64,000 bases of DNA from Amphibalanus amphitrite (taxonomy: Eukaryota > Arthropoda > Thecostraca > Balanomorpha > Balanidae): assembly GCF_019059575.1 (NCBI RefSeq), contig NW_024881985.1, forward strand, positions 248,001 through 312,000, written 5' to 3'. The notes beneath the pieces are model-generated. The model ran no database searches. It was not told the DNA's origin and saw only the letters and a program-made list of their open reading frames with translations. Within the stretch, counting starts at the first letter, position 1; the number at the start of each line of letters is the position of its first letter. Below, piece by piece: positions 5,425 to 62,600 of this stretch. Position numbers and translations under genes: made by a program.

Positions 5425-6303
5425 GCTCGAATATCCGAGGGCCCTTTGAGGCCTTCTGAGCGCCACTTGACGCCAGCTGAGGGCCATTTGATGTCAGCTG
5501 AGGACCCTTTGAAGCCTGCTGAGGGCCCTTTGAGGCCTTTTAAGGACCCTTTGACGCCAGCCGAGGGCCCTTTGAGGCCCTCTGAGGGCCGTTTGACACC
5601 AGCTGAGGACCGTTCGACGTCATCTGAGAGCCCTCTGACACCAGCTGGGGGCCTTCTGACGCCAGCTAAGTGCACTGTGAGGCCTTCGGAGGGCCGTTTG
5701 ACTCCATCTCATGGTCTTTTGACGCCCTTCAAGGCCTTCTGAGGGCCCTTTGACCCCAGCTGAGGGCCCTTTGAGGTCTTCGAAGGGCCATTTGACGCTA
5801 GCTTAGGGTCATCTGACGCCAGTTGAGGGCCCTCTGACACCAGCTGGGGGCCTTCTGACGCCAGCTAAGGGCACTGTGAGGCCTTCGGAGGGCCGTTTGA
5901 CTCCATCTCATGGTCTTTTGACGCCCTTCAAGGCCTTCTGAGGGCCCTTTGACCCCAGCTGAGGGCCCTTTGAGGTCTTCGAAGGGCCATTTGACGCTAG
6001 CTTAGGGTCATCTGACGCCAGTTGAGGGCCCTCTGACACCAGCTGGGGGGCCCTCTGACGCCAGCTAAGGGCCCTTTGACGCCTTCGGAGGCGTTTGACG
6101 CCGGTACAGGGCCCATTGGCGCCTTCTGAGGGCCGTTTGATGTCGGCTGAGGGCCCTTTGATGCCTTTTGAGGGCCCTTTGACGACATCTGAGGGCCCTT
6201 TGACGCCACCTGAGGGCCCTTTAAGGCTAACTGAGGGCCCTTTAAGGCCTTCTGAGGGTCCTTTGACGCCAGTTGAAGGCCCTTTGGGGCCTTTTGAAAG
6301 TTG
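5425..6303. repeat. 21-bp minisatellite with a 199-bp higher-order repeat
   Basis: The unit is close to GAGGGCCCTTTGACGCCAGCT (21 bp; first half and second half vary independently). Because 21 is a multiple of 3, long frames open on both strands (EGPLRPSEGRLTPA-like on plus, KGPSEGLKGPSAGVK-like on minus). A block starting at 5640 is repeated almost exactly from 5839, a period of 199 bp, showing a recent segmental duplication inside the array. The array lies wholly within the large hAT element. The frames are probably by-products of the repeat length. Confidence 0.9.
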
Positions 6304-8779: not shown

Positions 8780-10000
8780 TTTTTATGCTCGGCGACTGGT
8801 GACACCCACTTTTGCTGGAATCACCTTTTTTATTGGGCGCCTTTCTACTGCTGGGGTCGCCTCTCTCTTGCTGAGGTCACCCCTCTTCTGCTCGGCGGGG
8901 CTTACTTCTGATTGGCGCCCCTCCTCTGCTGAGGTCTCACTTTTCTGCTGGAGTCTGACATTTCCCTTCCCGGGTATGCCCTAATTTTGCTAGAGGAGTC
9001 CCTCTTCTGCCGCAGGCGAACCCAACTTCTGCTTAAGTCGCTCGACCTTTTCTACTGAGGGCGCCCTTCTTGTGCTCGGCGAGCCACACTGCCGCTTGAG
9101 GTGTCCCATTTTTATTGGATGCGCCCCCTTCTGCGGGCGGCGCCCCTCTTTTGCGGGCACCCCTCTTTTGCCCTCTTCTGCTGGAGGCGCCCCTCTTCTG
9201 GTGGAACCGCCCCTCTTCTACGGGTGCGCACTCTTCTGCTAGAGCGCCTCTCTTCTGCTCGGCCACCTCAACTTCTGCTGAAGGTACTCGGCTATGTCTG
9301 TTGGGGCATTGCTCTTTTGCTGGGGAGCCCCTGTTCTGCTGGGGATGCTCCATTTCCGCCGGGGCCGCTGGGGACGCCCCACCTCTGCTGGGGGCGCCCC
9401 GGCCCCACTGCTGCTGGATGAACCGAACTTTTGCTCCAGGTGCCCCTTTTGTATTGGGGCGCCTCTCTTCTTTAGGCATCCCTCTCCTGGTAGGGCGCCC
9501 TTTCTGGTGTGGCGCCCCTTTCTGCTGGGGCGACCCTATGCTGGGAGTACTCCTCTTCTGCTGGGGCGCCCCACTACTGCTGGACGAGCCTAACTTTTTC
9601 TTGAGGTGCCCCCATTTATATTGGAGTGCCTCTCTTCTTCTGGAAGCATCCCTCTTCTGGTGGGGCGCCCCCTTTCTGCTGGGAGCCATTCTTGTCTTGT
9701 CCTTCTCTGCTGGAGGCATCTCTCTTCTGGTGGGGCGCCCCTTTCTGCTGGAGTGCTCTTCTTCTGCTGGGGCGCCCATCTTCTGGTGAGGCGCCCCTTT
9801 CTGCTGGGGTCGCCCGTGTTCTACTGAGGACGCTCTTCTACTGGGCGAACCCAAGTTCTGCTTGAGGTGCCTCATTCATACTGGGGGCGCCTCTCCTCCG
9901 CTTGGGCGCCAGTCTTCTGCTTGACGATCCCAACCTACGTTGGAGGTGCCCCACTTCTGCCTCGGGCGCTCCACTTTTGCTGAGAAAGTCCCGTTCTTGC
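8780..10000. repeat. Degenerate ~18-21-bp minisatellite, GCGCCCCTCTTCTGCTGGG type
   Basis: About 1.2 kb of units near GGCGCCCCTCTTCTGCTGG with length varying between 18 and 21 bp. It yields a 280-codon minus-strand frame (AP/QQKRGA-rich) and several plus-strand Cys/Trp/Leu-rich frames, all low complexity. These are shadows of the repeat. It ends shortly before the right subterminal GTGCAC motifs of the hAT element. Confidence 0.85.
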
Positions 10001-17955: not shown

Positions 17956-17964
17956 GTCCGTCGG
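17956..17964. repeat. Left 9-bp target-site duplication of the MULE
   Basis: GTCCGTCGG, repeated exactly at 26447-26455. Nine-base duplications are typical of Mutator-superfamily insertions. Confidence 0.92.
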
Positions 17965-18008
17965 GCGTATTTTGAATTCACCATAGGGCTCAGCCACTCC
18001 TAGCGGAA
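17965..18008. repeat. MULE left terminal inverted repeat
   Basis: A 44-bp arm beginning GCGTATTTTGAATTCACC and ending TAGCGGAA. It differs from the right arm at positions 33 and 40 only. Confidence 0.92.
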
Positions 18009-18455
18009 AATTCTGGGGAATTCTCCCCCTGGCGACAAATGTGGGGAAATGAGCATAAATGTGTAAGTCCCTAGAAACTAATTCTTCCCAAGAAGTCCCC
18101 CACTACATTAGTGATGCAAGTTTGACTGGGGTATATTAGAGATGCAAATTACATGAAAAGATGTTATATTTTATGTTAAGATTGAGAAACCGTGCTTATA
18201 GTGGAAGGTATGTTAATGATGCAAACATATTAGCGAACTGGGAGTGGTCACTGGTCACCTGCTAATTTTGCGTCATTCCGCTAACGCTAGTTGAGCCAGT
18301 TATTGCTTGAAGCGTCATAACTTCGGTATAACTATACATCATTATTTGTTGGCTATTAACTGAGATCTGATTTCTTTATCTTTTAAAGAAGACTTAATAT
18401 AAGAGAGATGGTAGCATCGTCTTGGTGTCATATCTGATCAAAGCGGCCATCCTCC

Positions 18456-18890
18456 AATGTCCCAACTTACCCCGCGGCGGGGGGTCAGTTGGGCCAAGGC
18501 CTAAGGCAAGTTGGTACACTAGGAAAAACAGTTTATCTAAACACATTTTTATTCATGTTTCACATGAACAATCATCGCTAATCCATGCGGGCATTAACGA
18601 CAAAACACAAACGTTTGCAGTACTCCTGCGGCAAACAAAAAGGCACACACAACGACACTAGAAGAGAATATTTTCACAGCAAGAAAATCACTTTTGGTAC
18701 CTGAAACACATTTGTAGCGATTATTAACAGCACTTACCTCAGCACGCGCCGACACCACGTTGACAAACAGACGGCGTTACTGTTCATGTACAAAATAAGT
18801 TTGAACGCCAACTGTCGAGAAGTATTGGAAATATCCCTTCCGTCCCAACTTACCCCCCCCCCCCCTGGCACCAACTTGCCCCGGTCACCC
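18456..18890. repeat. CCAACTTRCCCC motif cluster in the MULE 3' flank
   Basis: GTCCCAACTTACCCC occurs at both ends of this interval in direct orientation (from about 18457 and 18842). An inverted pair, GGCAAGTTGGTAC near 18507 and GCACCAACTTGCC near 18867, lies just inside. Long poly-C/poly-G tracts adjoin both. It may be a small nested MITE or a subterminal repeat set of the MULE. Confidence 0.45.
18548..18553 (-). terminator. Possible polyadenylation signal of the transposase gene
   Basis: AATAAA on the minus strand about 360 nt after the transposase stop codon (18909-18911). It is the right strand and distance for a 3' UTR, but the hexamer alone is weak evidence. Confidence 0.3.
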
Positions 18891-18908
18891 CCACTTCACC
18901 TCTATCAC

Positions 18909-25625
<6,717 letters not shown>

Positions 25626-25655
25626 AAAGTTAGTGGCGGACTTGTACCTATTCAA

Positions 25656-26402
25656 TATTTAATATCAATATAGTAACAATGGTTACACGACTCATAATCT
25701 TCACTTACAGCATTTCTTAAAAATTACCTATGTAAAGATTATAATTCTGCTGGTGATACCTATAGCCATGTGGGTAAATGTCAAGTTTAAGTCCTAAGCA
25801 GATTTCATGGATAATTTTTTCATATTCTTACATTATTTGGCCGGTACACATGGAGGTCCCCGCTTCAAAATTAGTTAATTTTGAATTTAGTGTTTCCGAC
25901 CATTATTTGACATCCTGAATCCAAAAATGATACTTATATGTCTCGTAACTAAAAGAAAAACATAATCAAACCTGAACTAACCTTACCTTTTCACCTATAA
26001 CCTACCAATCTACTACCTACAAACCTACAATGCAACCTAAAACTTACAGCCTAACGTAACCTAAAACATAATTTTTTTGCTGTTACAGATTTGTATCAAC
26101 AGCGTCACAGTTATAGTTAGGACCTAAACTTGACATATACCTGTATTTCTTGCGCCCTAACCCACAACAACAGCAACAACAACTGTATTTCTTGCAAAGA
26201 ACATGCACCTAAAATGGAAATACTTATTAATCACCAACCTTTTCCAGCATCTTGAAGCATATATAGGCCTCCGCAATAAACGAGCAAACATGAGACACGA
26301 AAAAGGCGCTTTGGATTAAAAGGCGCGCCAGTGGCATCGGAAGAGCTGCCAGATCGGCTGAAATCCCTAGCGCGATTTCGCTTTTTTCCAAGGTGCCTAG
26401 AA
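25656..26402. other. MULE 5' flank: probable promoter/UTR of the transposase gene
   Basis: AT-rich sequence between the presumed first coding exon and the right terminal repeat. It has CCTACAACCTA-type simple repeats (26010-26060) and a CAACAACAGC run near 26165. No other frame is convincing. The transposase promoter should lie here or in the terminal repeat, but no individual box is clear. Confidence 0.4.
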
Positions 26403-26446
26403 TTCCTCTAGGAATGGCTGAGCCCTATGGTGAATTCAAAATACGC
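26403..26446. repeat. MULE right terminal inverted repeat
   Basis: The inverted partner of 17965-18008, ending GGTGAATTCAAAATACGC on plus. Confidence 0.92.
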
Positions 26447-26455
26447 GTCCGTCGG
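26447..26455. repeat. Right 9-bp target-site duplication of the MULE
   Basis: GTCCGTCGG, identical to 17956-17964. Confidence 0.92.
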
Positions 26456-26461
26456 CTAGTG

Positions 26462-26480
26462 TGACGTCACAATGACGTCA
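26462..26480. promoter_or_regulatory. Twin CRE palindromes next to the MULE
   Basis: TGACGTCA occurs at 26462-26469 and again at 26473-26480, centres 11 bp apart, followed by a CACGTG E-box at about 26494. TGACGTCA is the consensus site of CREB/ATF bZIP factors. A GC-rich stretch follows, so this may be a promoter-proximal region of a host gene not visible here. Confidence 0.5.
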
Positions 26481-56548: not shown

Positions 56549-59416
56549 GGCGTGCGCCCGGTCCGGCCGCCCGCCGCCGCCGCCAGCCGCCGCCGCGAAA
56601 GCGAAAACTGTGCTACCGAGTCAGTGGTGTGGCGGCGTCCGGCGGCGGCGGTCAGTGCCACGTGCGGCGGTCGTTGTGAGTGGTGTGTGACACTGACCTT
56701 GGCCGGAGACGGGTCACGGAGAGAGGGGTGTCACTTGGAGAGAGGGGAGAGCAGCTGGCATCGGCACCGACCCGGGTCACAGCGATACCCGCACTGGTGA
56801 GAGAGGCGCCGCACGCGCTAACCGGTTGGCGGCACTCTGCTAGTTTTTAATCCCAGTCAACACTTCTGTCATTGCTGTTCTTTGCACTCAAAGCTGAATG
56901 CTTGCCTATTTTTTATATTGTGATCATTGTAGTGCTAATAATATTGTATTCAAATTGTGCGTATGCAAATTATGGCGAATAATTGATCCTGGTGCGGCTA
57001 CGGTTGTTCCGGATGTATGCTAAATTTGGTCGAAACAGGACCTATTTTAGAAGTGCTCGTCATTATAATGGACTATAATTTAGCCATGCAAACTCATAAA
57101 TGTTTCCGTTTTATTGCTTTTATGATAACGTCCCTGCCGCGCCACCATTTTTAGTTCATTTCTTCACACCTGCACAATGCTTTATGCTCGTGGCGATGCA
57201 AATAGTTTCGCAGCAGAGAACAGTTGATTCTAAATGATTAGGACTTTGCTCAATTACCTGCATTACGTATTTAAACGACCACCATGCTTTTGAAGCAGTT
57301 AGTGGCAGCTGGATTATCACCTTTTCAATTTTTCTGTAATAATTTATAAAAATGTATCATCCAAGTCATACAGACCACATACACTCCGTTCGGGCACTCT
57401 TCTCAATTCGCGGATGAGCCAATGTAAGCGCGCCTCCTCTACTCTGTCCTGTAGGTACCGGGCCGAGACAGCCCGCTCCTCCGCGTCTGTCTGCCACTCT
57501 CGGCGCCGGCATTCACTCGCCGATCCGCGGCATCCCCGTCTGTCGCGTCGGCGTTGGCGAAAAAAGGCCGCCTCGTTTCCTGTTCTGTCCCCAAAGTCTC
57601 GGCGATGCCGCTGCGCCCCCAGCTGCGTCTAGGTCCGGTATGCTCCGTCTGTCTCCGCATAGACAGAGGTGCTTCTGTGTACCGGCCAGCGCACCGGCCG
57701 GTCATGAGAACCTGCAGTTCGAATTGCCATTAATCCGGTAAATTTCGGCTCAACATGTTGTTATCTATTATATAACACACATGTTTTTGTGCGTGTACGT
57801 GCTATGTAGTAAGGCCATTCACATGGCTGTCGCTAAATACTAACAAGCTCGAAGTGAAAATACAAGCTATTGTTCGGATACTTTTCTAATCGAGTCTGTC
57901 GCAGTGCCACTAATCGCCATCGGTTTCCGATCTTGGCCAACAGTTTGTGGCCGTCTCTGCTGACCGGTAGAGCGGACGATGAACGATTCTGCTCACGTGC
58001 CGACGATTCATTACCGCCGAAGCTCCTTGACATTGAAGGCGGTCAGAGGCGAGGCAGAGGCGCCGCGTTCTGCAACTCACTCGATTTGATTAATTTATAG
58101 GTGTCATGCATATGGTGTTGTTCTAGTGGTGAGCATACAACTCTAGGATCATTTTGGCACTATCTGGGTGGTCTGAATGCATTGTGCCGCTTAGGCTACG
58201 TTTCTTCCTTATTAAAAATGAGCCGGAATGTTTTTCCTCTTTCAATATACCTACGTGGCATAGACTTTCAATATACCTGGGCATAGAAATAAAGATGGCA
58301 TCCTGGCTGAAAGGCACCCTTTCAGGTGGATTCGGACAGGTGTTTCTCTATAGACTCCCGCCGTCCTTTCGTGGAACTACAATCTCCTCGCTCGCTGGAC
58401 CGTTACCTATGTGTGCTCACGTCCGTCCCTCGGACTCCGGCTCCACAGGTGCTTTACTGACCACCTCCCTCTTGGGACGGTAGGGAAGGGTGCAGCCTCG
58501 CCGGCCACTAGTGACTTTGCTAGTCGGCGGGCCGGTGCGGCGGGTGTCCGCTTGGCGGGGAGGACTGGAGTGCATATTGCACAGTGCACAAGATATACAG
58601 CGTGGCTGCGAGTCCCCGTTGTGTTGGGGATAGTTGAGATGCCGTTTCTGCGCCGGCCGGCCCACACATCCCGAGCCTGTCTTTGTGCACGGGATCACCG
58701 TCGGGTAACGGTGCATCCCTCCCTCGCCGTCCGGCCGGTACCGCCGCCCTCGACCCCTCCTCCCACCTTCCTCGCTCGCTCGCTCCCTCGCCTCGCCTCC
58801 CCTGCTCGTGCTCATGCCCGTCTAACGTCCGGCCGGCATGCAGCGTCATTTTCCGCGGCCTGCATACGTGCCGGTCGTTAGCTGCAACTGGCGGGGCCGC
58901 TGCCGCTCGGCCTGACCTCAGCCGCCGCGATGGAGGTCACGGTACGACGAGCCGTCCGAGACGCGACAAAGACAGGATGAAGACGCCGGGAGGAGTGTAT
59001 CAGTGGTATTGGAAACTGCTCTGTGTGGTTGGAAAACGATCGGCCCAGCTCGGCGTGGTTATCCAGGATCGGATGGGGTTACTCTGCATCGGCTCCGCCG
59101 TATCGGCCTCGTCCGGGCTGCCTCAGCAGTGGGTTCTGTCTACCCCGGTTCGGTCCAGGCTATATAATGATTGTATTTCTCCAGAGTCCAGACTCGTACT
59201 CCGAGCTAACAGTACTCCTGTCTGCTTCAGCTCGTTCTTATCCCGACTCGCCTTTCTCGGCTTAACCACGGCTCGTCTGTCTTATCCACGGCCCGCCTGT
59301 CCCAGCTTATTTACGGCTTTCTCAACTCTATGCCGTTATCCATTGCACATGTGTAGCTTTCGCAGCCCTCTTTAAGTGTGTTCCATGACTTGGCATGGAT
59401 GTCGCCTGGACCAGTA
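56549..59416. other. No gene seen
   Basis: AT-rich 56830-57400. GC islands lie at 57400-57710 and 58370-58990. The 230-codon frame at 58683-59375 is not recognised and overlaps frames on the other strand. Confidence 0.35.
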
Positions 59417-59628
59417 CGAGTCTGTCTTAAAAGTGCCGCGCAAAGTAACGGTGGACCCATCAAGCCTGACCGAGGAAGGACTGCTAAATTTGAGTCACCG
59501 AAACAATGGATATCCTCGTCCATTCTCCAGGTCAATTGGTTCGGTTACTTTCAAATTATAGCAGGCCCTTCCTCGGTCAGGCTTTATGGATCCACCGTCA
59601 CTTTGCGCGGTACTTTTAAGACAGACTG
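59417..59628. mobile_element. Tc1/mariner-type palindromic MITE, copy 2 (212 bp)
   Basis: It is flanked by TA (59415-59416, 59629-59630). The right arm on minus starts CAGTCTGTCTTAAAAGT and the left starts CGAGTCTGTCTTAAAAGT. The arms pair over about 68 bp. It is in the opposite orientation to 19766-19977 and most positions agree, so both belong to one recently active family. Confidence 0.85.
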
Positions 59629-59630
59629 TA

Positions 59631-62600
59631 CAGCGCTTACTCTCTGGTATCAGTGCGAACCATACCTACCTTAGGACCAGCACTGACCATCCTCCAGGAC
59701 AAGTGCAAACTGGCGGAGATCTTTTGATGGTAAATATTTAAGCGGACACACACACCGCCCAACCAACATGTATCCAACGCTCTTTTCCGCCGCTGCGCTG
59801 GCCTGTGTTCTGTCCTGTGTTGTTCCATCGCCGCGTGCACCGGCCCACGGCGACACGATCGGCCGGTTCCCCGTGGGCGGAGAGCCACCCGACCTATCAC
59901 GTGACTTATCCATCGCCGACCGTCTCCCGATACCTACCATGTCCCGAGACACCTGGGGAGTACCGGCGACGACGTCGGCGGCTGCGGGGCCGACTCTGTC
60001 CGTCGCTATCTGGCCGGTGGACGGACCGTCGCGTCGCCTCCTCTCGCTACGCGCGTGCTGCCATTGTCAGCTGGCCATTTAGCTGGCGGCGGACGGCTCA
60101 AAAAGCCACGAGCCGGGCGACAATACGGTCGCCGGCCGATGGAAGGCATTGTCTTCCCGGAGCTGGCTCGTTAGCGGCCCTCGGTCGCCGGCGGCGGCGG
60201 GGCTGTGAATGACCCAGTGGGCGTGAAGGTCAGGCCACTGCGCCACACACCGCCACCCCTGCCAGTTCAAGGATGCTGCGCCGGACAGCGGCGACCGCGC
60301 GGAACGTTCCAGGGCGGGGCAGAAGCGGTGACGCATTAGGCGTGCCGGATATCGAGGGGCGTGTTTACCTAGGGGAGAACGTATGGACGCTGCGATGGTG
60401 TGTTGAGTACCAGACTGCCTTTAGTGGATACTGTGGAGAGAGAGCATGAATTACTTTTGATGGGGTGCCCTGCACATTGATCTTTTACGGAGAGGCGTAT
60501 TCACTGGGAATGGGATACTTGTCACAGGAACCGATGCCAATAAATCATGAGATGCTGAAAAATATATGAGTGATGACGGAAGAGAAATCAGACCGCAGTG
60601 TGCTAACGAAAGCAGCGATTGATGGCCATGGAAATGAAATATAGTTTAGAAAGACCGGGAAAGATTATCGGGAAAAGCCGACTAGTAGCGTTGGAAATCA
60701 GATCGGGAAATGCGGGCGAAACAAGGCCGGTCCGAGGGGGAGGCCATGGCTGCACAGGTGACTAAGGGGCTGTGTGTGAATTAATGGGGCGCCCATGACT
60801 CTCTGTCAGCCTCGACGGCCCGCATTGCCGGCGGCCGCTGAACGGCGCCCTGTGCCGGGTTCGGAGCGCACCTGTCGCGTCAGCGGGCCACGGGGCACGG
60901 CCGCGGGGCGCCGGGTCCGACCGACCTCGGGCGCGCCTCAGGGACCGCCGCGCCGGGTCACGCGGTCTGCGCCGGCCCCAGCCAAGGTCACCGGACGGCC
61001 GACCGACACGCGGCGCGGTACAGGTACACGACGGCAGAGGCGGCGCAGCGGCGGCAGAGGGAGTTAAGACCTGATGACCTGCTGCCAGGTCGACCTTGCA
61101 GGGCGGCAGACACCAACGAGGTTTAGAAGTGTTTCCAGACATGCGGCCGAATCACCGTCAGACTGACGTGGATACGTTCACTTGACCTGCGTCTCATGAC
61201 TCCTCGCACGCATGGCCTGTGATGTTGAATGCTGATGGTTCTCTGATCCAGTGACACCGCCGGTTATCTCTGCGGCACATTGTCGAATGTCGCACCGGAC
61301 GCGTGTGTGTCTGAAGTCTGAACGCCGTGACATCTGTCCCACTCTCTCTCCCCGCCGCAGCGTCCGGCCTCGCCGACACTCAGGTCACGGTCTGTGGCGT
61401 GGTGTCGGCTTGGTCGCAGTTTGTACACACCTGCTCAGCGGTAACGGCCGTGCCCTCAGCTCAGTTCCTGGCTGTCCGCACCTGTCGGAAAGTGTCGGGG
61501 GATGGGGCTGTCCTGTCTGGCGTTCCACGTTCCAACCGGAGGCGTCAATCAGTTGAGACCGCCGACACCGTCGGTCAGTATAGGCTGTGCCGAGTGCCGA
61601 CGCATGTTGACCCCCCAGTATTCCTTTACTACCTCTCCAGTGTCGCGGGCATACTGAGTTGACCCTATACCAGTCCTAACCAGCTACCAGTACCGAATCC
61701 CCGCCAGACACTGTGGGTGGCATTGTTTCGTGTAGAACACAGGCAGCCATCCCCTCCGCCGCCGCCGTCGTCCCAAATAGCATTGTCCGCCGACCTCCGA
61801 GGGTCCACACCTCTGTCGCAACACTCCAAGGTTCAAGGCGGTTCATGGCTGCCGCCTGTGCCAGCGGAAACCTGTTGGTCGTCCTGGGGCGGAGCGGCAC
61901 CGCCGGCTGATGGATGGCAGTGAATGTGTGCCGAGATGATCGCCGCATGGATACGAGCCCTGCTCGGCGCTGAATCGAATATTAACGGGCCAGGGGTGAG
62001 TGAGCCCGCGTCGAGCGCCTCCAGCTGGCCTAGTTTGACCGGTGCAGCGACATGGCGAGTGACAGGCAGAGAGAGAGGGTGACATGGCAGAGGGGATGGC
62101 GGTTGTTAACTCGTTTTTTTTTTTTTTTTTTTTTTTTAGAGTGGTGGTTTGTGTGCTTGATGATATGTTTGATATCCGCTTGCTGCTGATAGATCAGCAT
62201 TCCCATTGATCGACTGAAGTCAGAAGTGGTTGGAAGCACAGTCCACAGTTCGTGCCATGGCTCCTGTTTGTATGCACCCTTGAGTTGTGACGTCTGAACA
62301 CTGCGCTTTGGGTGACGTCTGTTAGGCTGTTAGCTATCCTCCTCTGACCCAGAAACTGCCTCATTCTGCCGAATCGTCTGCCACGCTTAAACTCTCTCAG
62401 CCAGTGAGTCACTCACTCACTCGCTCACACACACGCTCGCTCAGTGGCTCACTTTAGCCGGCGGCGGCGCGCCGGTGCGTGGCGCCCGTGTGATTCCCGG
62501 AAAGTGAAACGTCGTCCGTCCGTCGGGCCGGCCGTCCAGCCTGGCTGGCGGCGGGCGGCGCGGCCGGCCGGCCCTGGTAGAAAGCGACCCGCCGCTGTGA

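Follow-up and report, generated by a model that had tools for sequence, protein, structure and literature searches.

A structurally complete Mutator-like element with a predicted ten-exon transposase gene in the barnacle Amphibalanus amphitrite

Mutator-like elements (MULEs) carry terminal inverted repeats (TIRs) with published lengths of 14-500 bp (PMC6446971) and are flanked by target-site duplications of 8-11 bp, mostly 9 (PMC6446971, Table 1). In arthropods, 322 types have been catalogued across 222 species, and 305 of these types combine intact ends with a full transposase; TIRs measure 13-1193 bp, elements 1.4-10 kb, and the catalytic residues are spaced 60-76 from first to second D and mostly 120-135 from second D to E (PMC13359780). 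The catalogued elements have one or two ORFs each, the word "intron" is absent from the main text, and inclusion depended on 80% of the DDE domain being covered in tBLASTN (PMC13359780). Among individually described systems, Muta1 of Aedes aegypti, grouped with Phantom in group 20 (PMC6446971), is a 3.2-kb element with 8-9 bp duplications, 145-bp complex TIRs and a two-exon gene encoding a 504-residue DDE protein, in which the CxxH and the W of a helical insertion have roles (PMC5225508). Planarian sub-group Sm of MULE group 16 combines a 9-bp duplication and 42-46 bp TIRs with SWIM and a second zinc finger (PMC6446971, Table 1). More distant in kind, ISCth4 is a 1.5-kb, single-ORF bacterial copy-out/paste-in element of the IS256 family, with an RNase-H-like core, helical insertion, DDE and CxxH (PMC7780238). 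There is no barnacle order among the 24 orders of Table 1 in PMC13359780, and its main text mentions neither barnacles nor Amphibalanus. The literature searched, which excluded Repbase, likewise yielded no description of a barnacle MULE or Mutator element. Barnacles fall in orders other than those 24.

Here we report, with high confidence, a structurally complete MULE of 8,482 bp from the barnacle Amphibalanus amphitrite, with a ten-exon gene for a predicted 824-residue DDE transposase, that likely belongs to a young, multi-copy cut-and-paste family. It adds a new family to a well-known class of transposons and lies in the 64-kb stretch of DNA analysed (hereafter the window). The left TIR (17965-18008, plus strand) starts with GCG and is complementary to the right TIR (26403-26446, minus strand) at 42/44 positions (95%), the two arms lying 8394 nt apart. 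When the element was compared with the window by BLAST, this pair had an E value of 1.5e-13, and ~1e-15 such inverted pairs are expected in 9 kb under a uniform-base model. Resemblance between the two ends breaks off after ~44 bp, a length inside both published ranges. Both TIRs are directly flanked by GTCCGTCGG (17956-17964 and 26447-26455), identical at 9/9 positions; the chance of such identity at a fixed place is 4^-9, or ~4e-6. These ends fit a MULE, with TIRs present and a duplication within 8-11 bp, and they confirm the 44-bp repeats and perfect 9-bp duplication put forward in the original prediction.

The open multi-exon transposase that had also been predicted is likewise borne out. 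The gene occupies the minus strand and runs from an ATG at 26337 to a stop at 18909 (2,475 nt, 824 aa), its ten predicted exons joining in frame across eight GT-AG introns and one GC-AG intron (24336-23606), with no stop or frameshift. GC content at codon positions 1, 2 and 3 is 0.64, 0.49 and 0.80, against an overall intron GC of 0.34-0.52. Exon 1 (26239-26337) takes its start codon from gene models P0004 and P0006, both of which match at 33/33 residues; a later ATG at 26250 is a possible alternative, and models P0001-P0003 begin elsewhere. Exons 2 (25521-25601), 3 (25007-25153) and 9 (20340-20493) are bounded by in-frame GT-AG splices. Exon 4 (24337-24458), whose junction to the GC-AG intron is the same in P0006, encodes the CxH...C part of an N-terminal zinc-finger-like motif. 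Alignment and splice sites together place the HNH part of that motif in exon 5 (23333-23605), and likewise define exons 6 (22311-22660), 7 (22007-22185) and 8 (21187-21443), which carry the catalytic residues. Exon 10 (18909-19721), placed by its splice, holds the SWIM finger, the C-terminal tail and the stop. The NCBI gene model P0006 has identical exons 1-8, including the start and the GC-AG junction, and terminates in exon 9 with a different tail; other family gene models, those of this locus included, omit exons and vary in start. The 3' end is probably complete, since the last residues (PHSL..CV..N..LG) align with counterparts in several distant relatives, and a mechanical match to a polyadenylation-like hexamer occurs at 18553. 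In vivo, the transcript would be spliced into these ten predicted exons.

The predicted protein matches the MULE transposase domain PF10551 (32.2 bits, cut-off 27.6), and alignments recover the full DDE triad, with D305 in exon 6, D374 in exon 7 and E490 in exon 8, as well as a CxxH (C395/H398, exon 7) and W470 of the helical insertion (exon 8). The SWIM finger (C581, C583, C592, H594) is assigned by motif and alignment: its CxC...CxH ligands are invariant in 13/13 aligned proteins, while the Pfam SWIM model is matched by 2/13 and not by the window protein. A zinc finger, SWIM or FLYWCH, is frequent in MULEs without being universal. A PDB sequence search with the 264-aa core gave six hits at E 10 or below, the lowest E being 0.66, with no transposase among them; in the modelled structure of a sister copy, the best fold match was ISCth4, with which the element would share its core architecture.

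In its dimensions the barnacle element falls within the ranges of the arthropod catalogue for length, TIRs and first-to-second D, whereas the 115 residues between D374 and E490 (116 from one to the other) lie slightly below the usual spacing (PMC13359780). It resembles Muta1 in duplication length, in having TIRs and in a DDE core with D-D 69, D-H 24 and the H and W of the insertion, but is larger (8.5 kb), with shorter TIRs, ten predicted exons instead of two and a longer protein; D-E is 136 in Muta1 (D283-E419) and W-E 18, against 116 and 20 here (PMC5225508). The resemblance to group 16 Sm is one of anatomy only, compared by description and not by sequence (PMC6446971, Table 1). Uncharacterised animal SWIM/MULE proteins (fish si:dkey-75a21.2, sea urchin LOC756446, and those of Pomacea, Frankliniella and Diaphorina), compared as proteins only, have a MULE core followed by SWIM in the same order, at ~28-43% identity over partial alignments. 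The original prediction had called full-length MULEs with intact, intron-containing transposases uncommon in animals. For full-length elements this was overstated, given the 305 complete arthropod types; its intron-bearing part stands beside a catalogue of one- or two-ORF elements whose main text is silent on introns (PMC13359780). Because that survey required 80% cover of the DDE domain and describes elements of one or two ORFs, while the triad here spans three exons, an element of this kind could escape it; its nine introns point to a reason why a search for a single long ORF might count too few of them. What the locus offers is an intact MULE whose ends are defined, in a group without a described MULE in the literature searched, and it is suited to the existing yeast excision assay.

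A cut-and-paste cycle can be proposed from these features. The host would transcribe the minus-strand gene from near the right end and splice it; the N-terminal zinc-finger-like motif and the SWIM finger may help to bind the 44-bp ends; and the RNase-H-like core (D305, D374, E490), helped by the CxxH and the W of the helical insertion, would excise the element. Cutting of the target with a 9-bp stagger, followed by fill-in, would then generate the GTCCGTCGG duplication. DNA binding, cutting and present-day activity are thus ascribed to a predicted transposase on sequence grounds. Because the inverted ends match, the 9-base duplication is exact and the ten-exon predicted frame is unbroken, it is likely that the unit is a recently mobile jumping gene. 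As the original prediction supposed, it may be autonomous.

It may nonetheless be that this copy is complete but silenced or inactive, once mobile and no longer autonomous through missplicing, methylation or damage invisible in the frame, a reading that we consider quite possible, if short of probable. Its introns have acquired further sequence, which the original prediction did not mention. Within intron 9 lies a palindromic insert of 212 bp (19766-19977) with TA on both sides, recognized from its inverted repeat and by BLAST, which we take to be Tc1/mariner-like; a second copy is present in the window (19762-19981 versus 59414-59632, 90% alike). Intron 4 contains a 393-bp insert (23905-24297) with ends CAGGGCTGCGGAGTCG and an imperfect 8-bp duplication (7/8), presumably hAT-like, and intron 7 a 252-bp CT microsatellite (21688-21939). 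Two nested inserts, one of them flanked by an imperfect duplication, mean that the unit or its parent must have some age. Exons are also skipped in the annotated models of this locus and three sister genes. Against inactivity stand the predicted exons free of stops and frameshifts, the intact catalytic residues and the near identity of the sister genes.

Those sister genes come from a comparison of annotated gene models that skip exons, in which the count was confined to exons that a given model contains. Gene FJT64_018873 of Amphibalanus amphitrite coincides with this locus, without a difference in the shared exons of P0001 (639 residues) and P0002 (598), so that barnacle is almost certainly the host. 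Four further genes differ at 3/557 (P0003), 3/594 (P0004), 4/561 (P0005) and 3/499 (P0006) residues, the last deriving from a different annotation than the FJT64 gene set. Each of the four long FJT64 genes, this locus included, has its own contig (242, 1277, 715 and 594 kb), and a partial protein, P0007, on a further contig (542 kb) matches exon 10 at 212/216 residues. P0094 (717 kb) is a mosaic (93% over 45 residues, 60% over 50) and gives a weak hint only; a 321-aa C-terminal query returned two proteins, P0006 and this mosaic. The multiple copies typical of the MULE superfamily are thus represented by annotated proteins on different contigs, and are known as proteins alone. More distant members in the same species are P0017, P0084, P0093 and P0027, and BLAST within the window found no further copy of the element, a second copy being seen for the nested Tc1-like insert alone. 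Position 311 in exon 6 is D at this locus and N in all four sister genes covering that exon. We considered whether D311N might have inactivated the sisters; the wider alignment, barnacle genes included (n=91), has 75 D, 7 N, 4 E, 2 other residues and 3 gaps, which does not settle the matter.

Barnacle assemblies can retain both haplotypes, and the differences between copies are few, so some copies could be uncollapsed haplotypes. That one or two loci account for all of them, through haplotypes or duplicated assembly, and that the family is small, seems to us unlikely, because two haplotypes cannot yield four or five genes from one locus, and the four long FJT64 genes and P0007 each lie on their own contig. 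Least tenable is a domesticated, MULE-derived host gene that kept old transposon ends by chance: the gene is intron-rich with a conserved open frame, and the Pfam ZSWIM1/3 RNaseH-like model, a label of host genes, is matched by 4 of the 13 aligned proteins, though not by the window protein, but the exact duplication, the 42/44 ends and the full triad speak against it. The lone domesticated gene that the original prediction had named as its counter-case is rejected as the main reading because the species has four nearly identical annotated genes elsewhere, on other contigs, three from the FJT64 set and one from another annotation, and we regard it as highly improbable.

The barnacle family belongs to a wider set of proteins. 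A first search gave 27 proteins at E 1e-3 or better, and a profile search at least 84 at E 1e-10 or better among 7,989 scored candidates, from barnacles, mantis shrimp, insects, sea urchin, snail, bryozoan, fish and metagenomes; the first search adds crab, frog and a fungal protein (Gigaspora). Viral relatives were sought in IMG/VR contigs with two short peptide patterns, and none of the 81 pattern matches was a relative. In a tree of 33 rows, a barnacle pair and a metagenome protein share a long stem (1.38; support 90/85) amid mixed hosts, the tree having taken in unclassified relatives only, without reference transposases of named clades such as Phantom, Spectre, Ghost and MULE-Mollusca. The high intron number does not seem to be a trait of the whole clade, since the metagenome relatives P0009 (767 aa, 2.7-kb contig) and P0012 (697 aa, 2.3-kb contig) leave little space for introns, unless those contigs are transcripts.

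From both searches 18 vertebrate proteins were picked, 16 of them long enough for alignment. All three catalytic residues are kept in seven of the 16, all from fish (P0020, P0030, P0033, P0036, P0054, P0076, P0085); three are from Dissostichus, perhaps one family, and one has lost SWIM ligands. The second D is replaced by N in five proteins (two on one Etheostoma contig), and another catalytic position is lost or changed in four. To judge from these sequences, MULEs of this clade may be present in fish, a point relevant to the statement in PMC6446971 that evidence for chordate MULEs is limited. Rather speculatively, and on the doubtful side, this locus could be the best preserved copy in a barnacle MULE family that still moves and that ORF-based catalogues miss because its triad is spread over three exons. 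The clade would then extend from barnacle, sea urchin, snail and thrips to fish, in which full triads are retained, and vertebrate genes of the ZSWIM1/3 type would probably have arisen from this still-living lineage.

In the surroundings of the element, two CRE-type palindromes, TGACGTCA, lie at 26462 and 26473, 7-25 bp past the right duplication, on the upstream side of the transposase gene. They may mark a promoter or drive the gene of this copy. The window contains eight such sites (also 47853, 47875, 11264, 12528, 35747 and 62610), against ~1 expected by a uniform-base estimate. Elsewhere, a large tandem array with nested periods of ~21, 42 and 199 bp occupies 5433-6286, and the ORF listing of the flanks includes a 280-aa open frame of short repeated units (GAPHQKR-like) on the minus strand at 9033-9875, probably a translated repeat.
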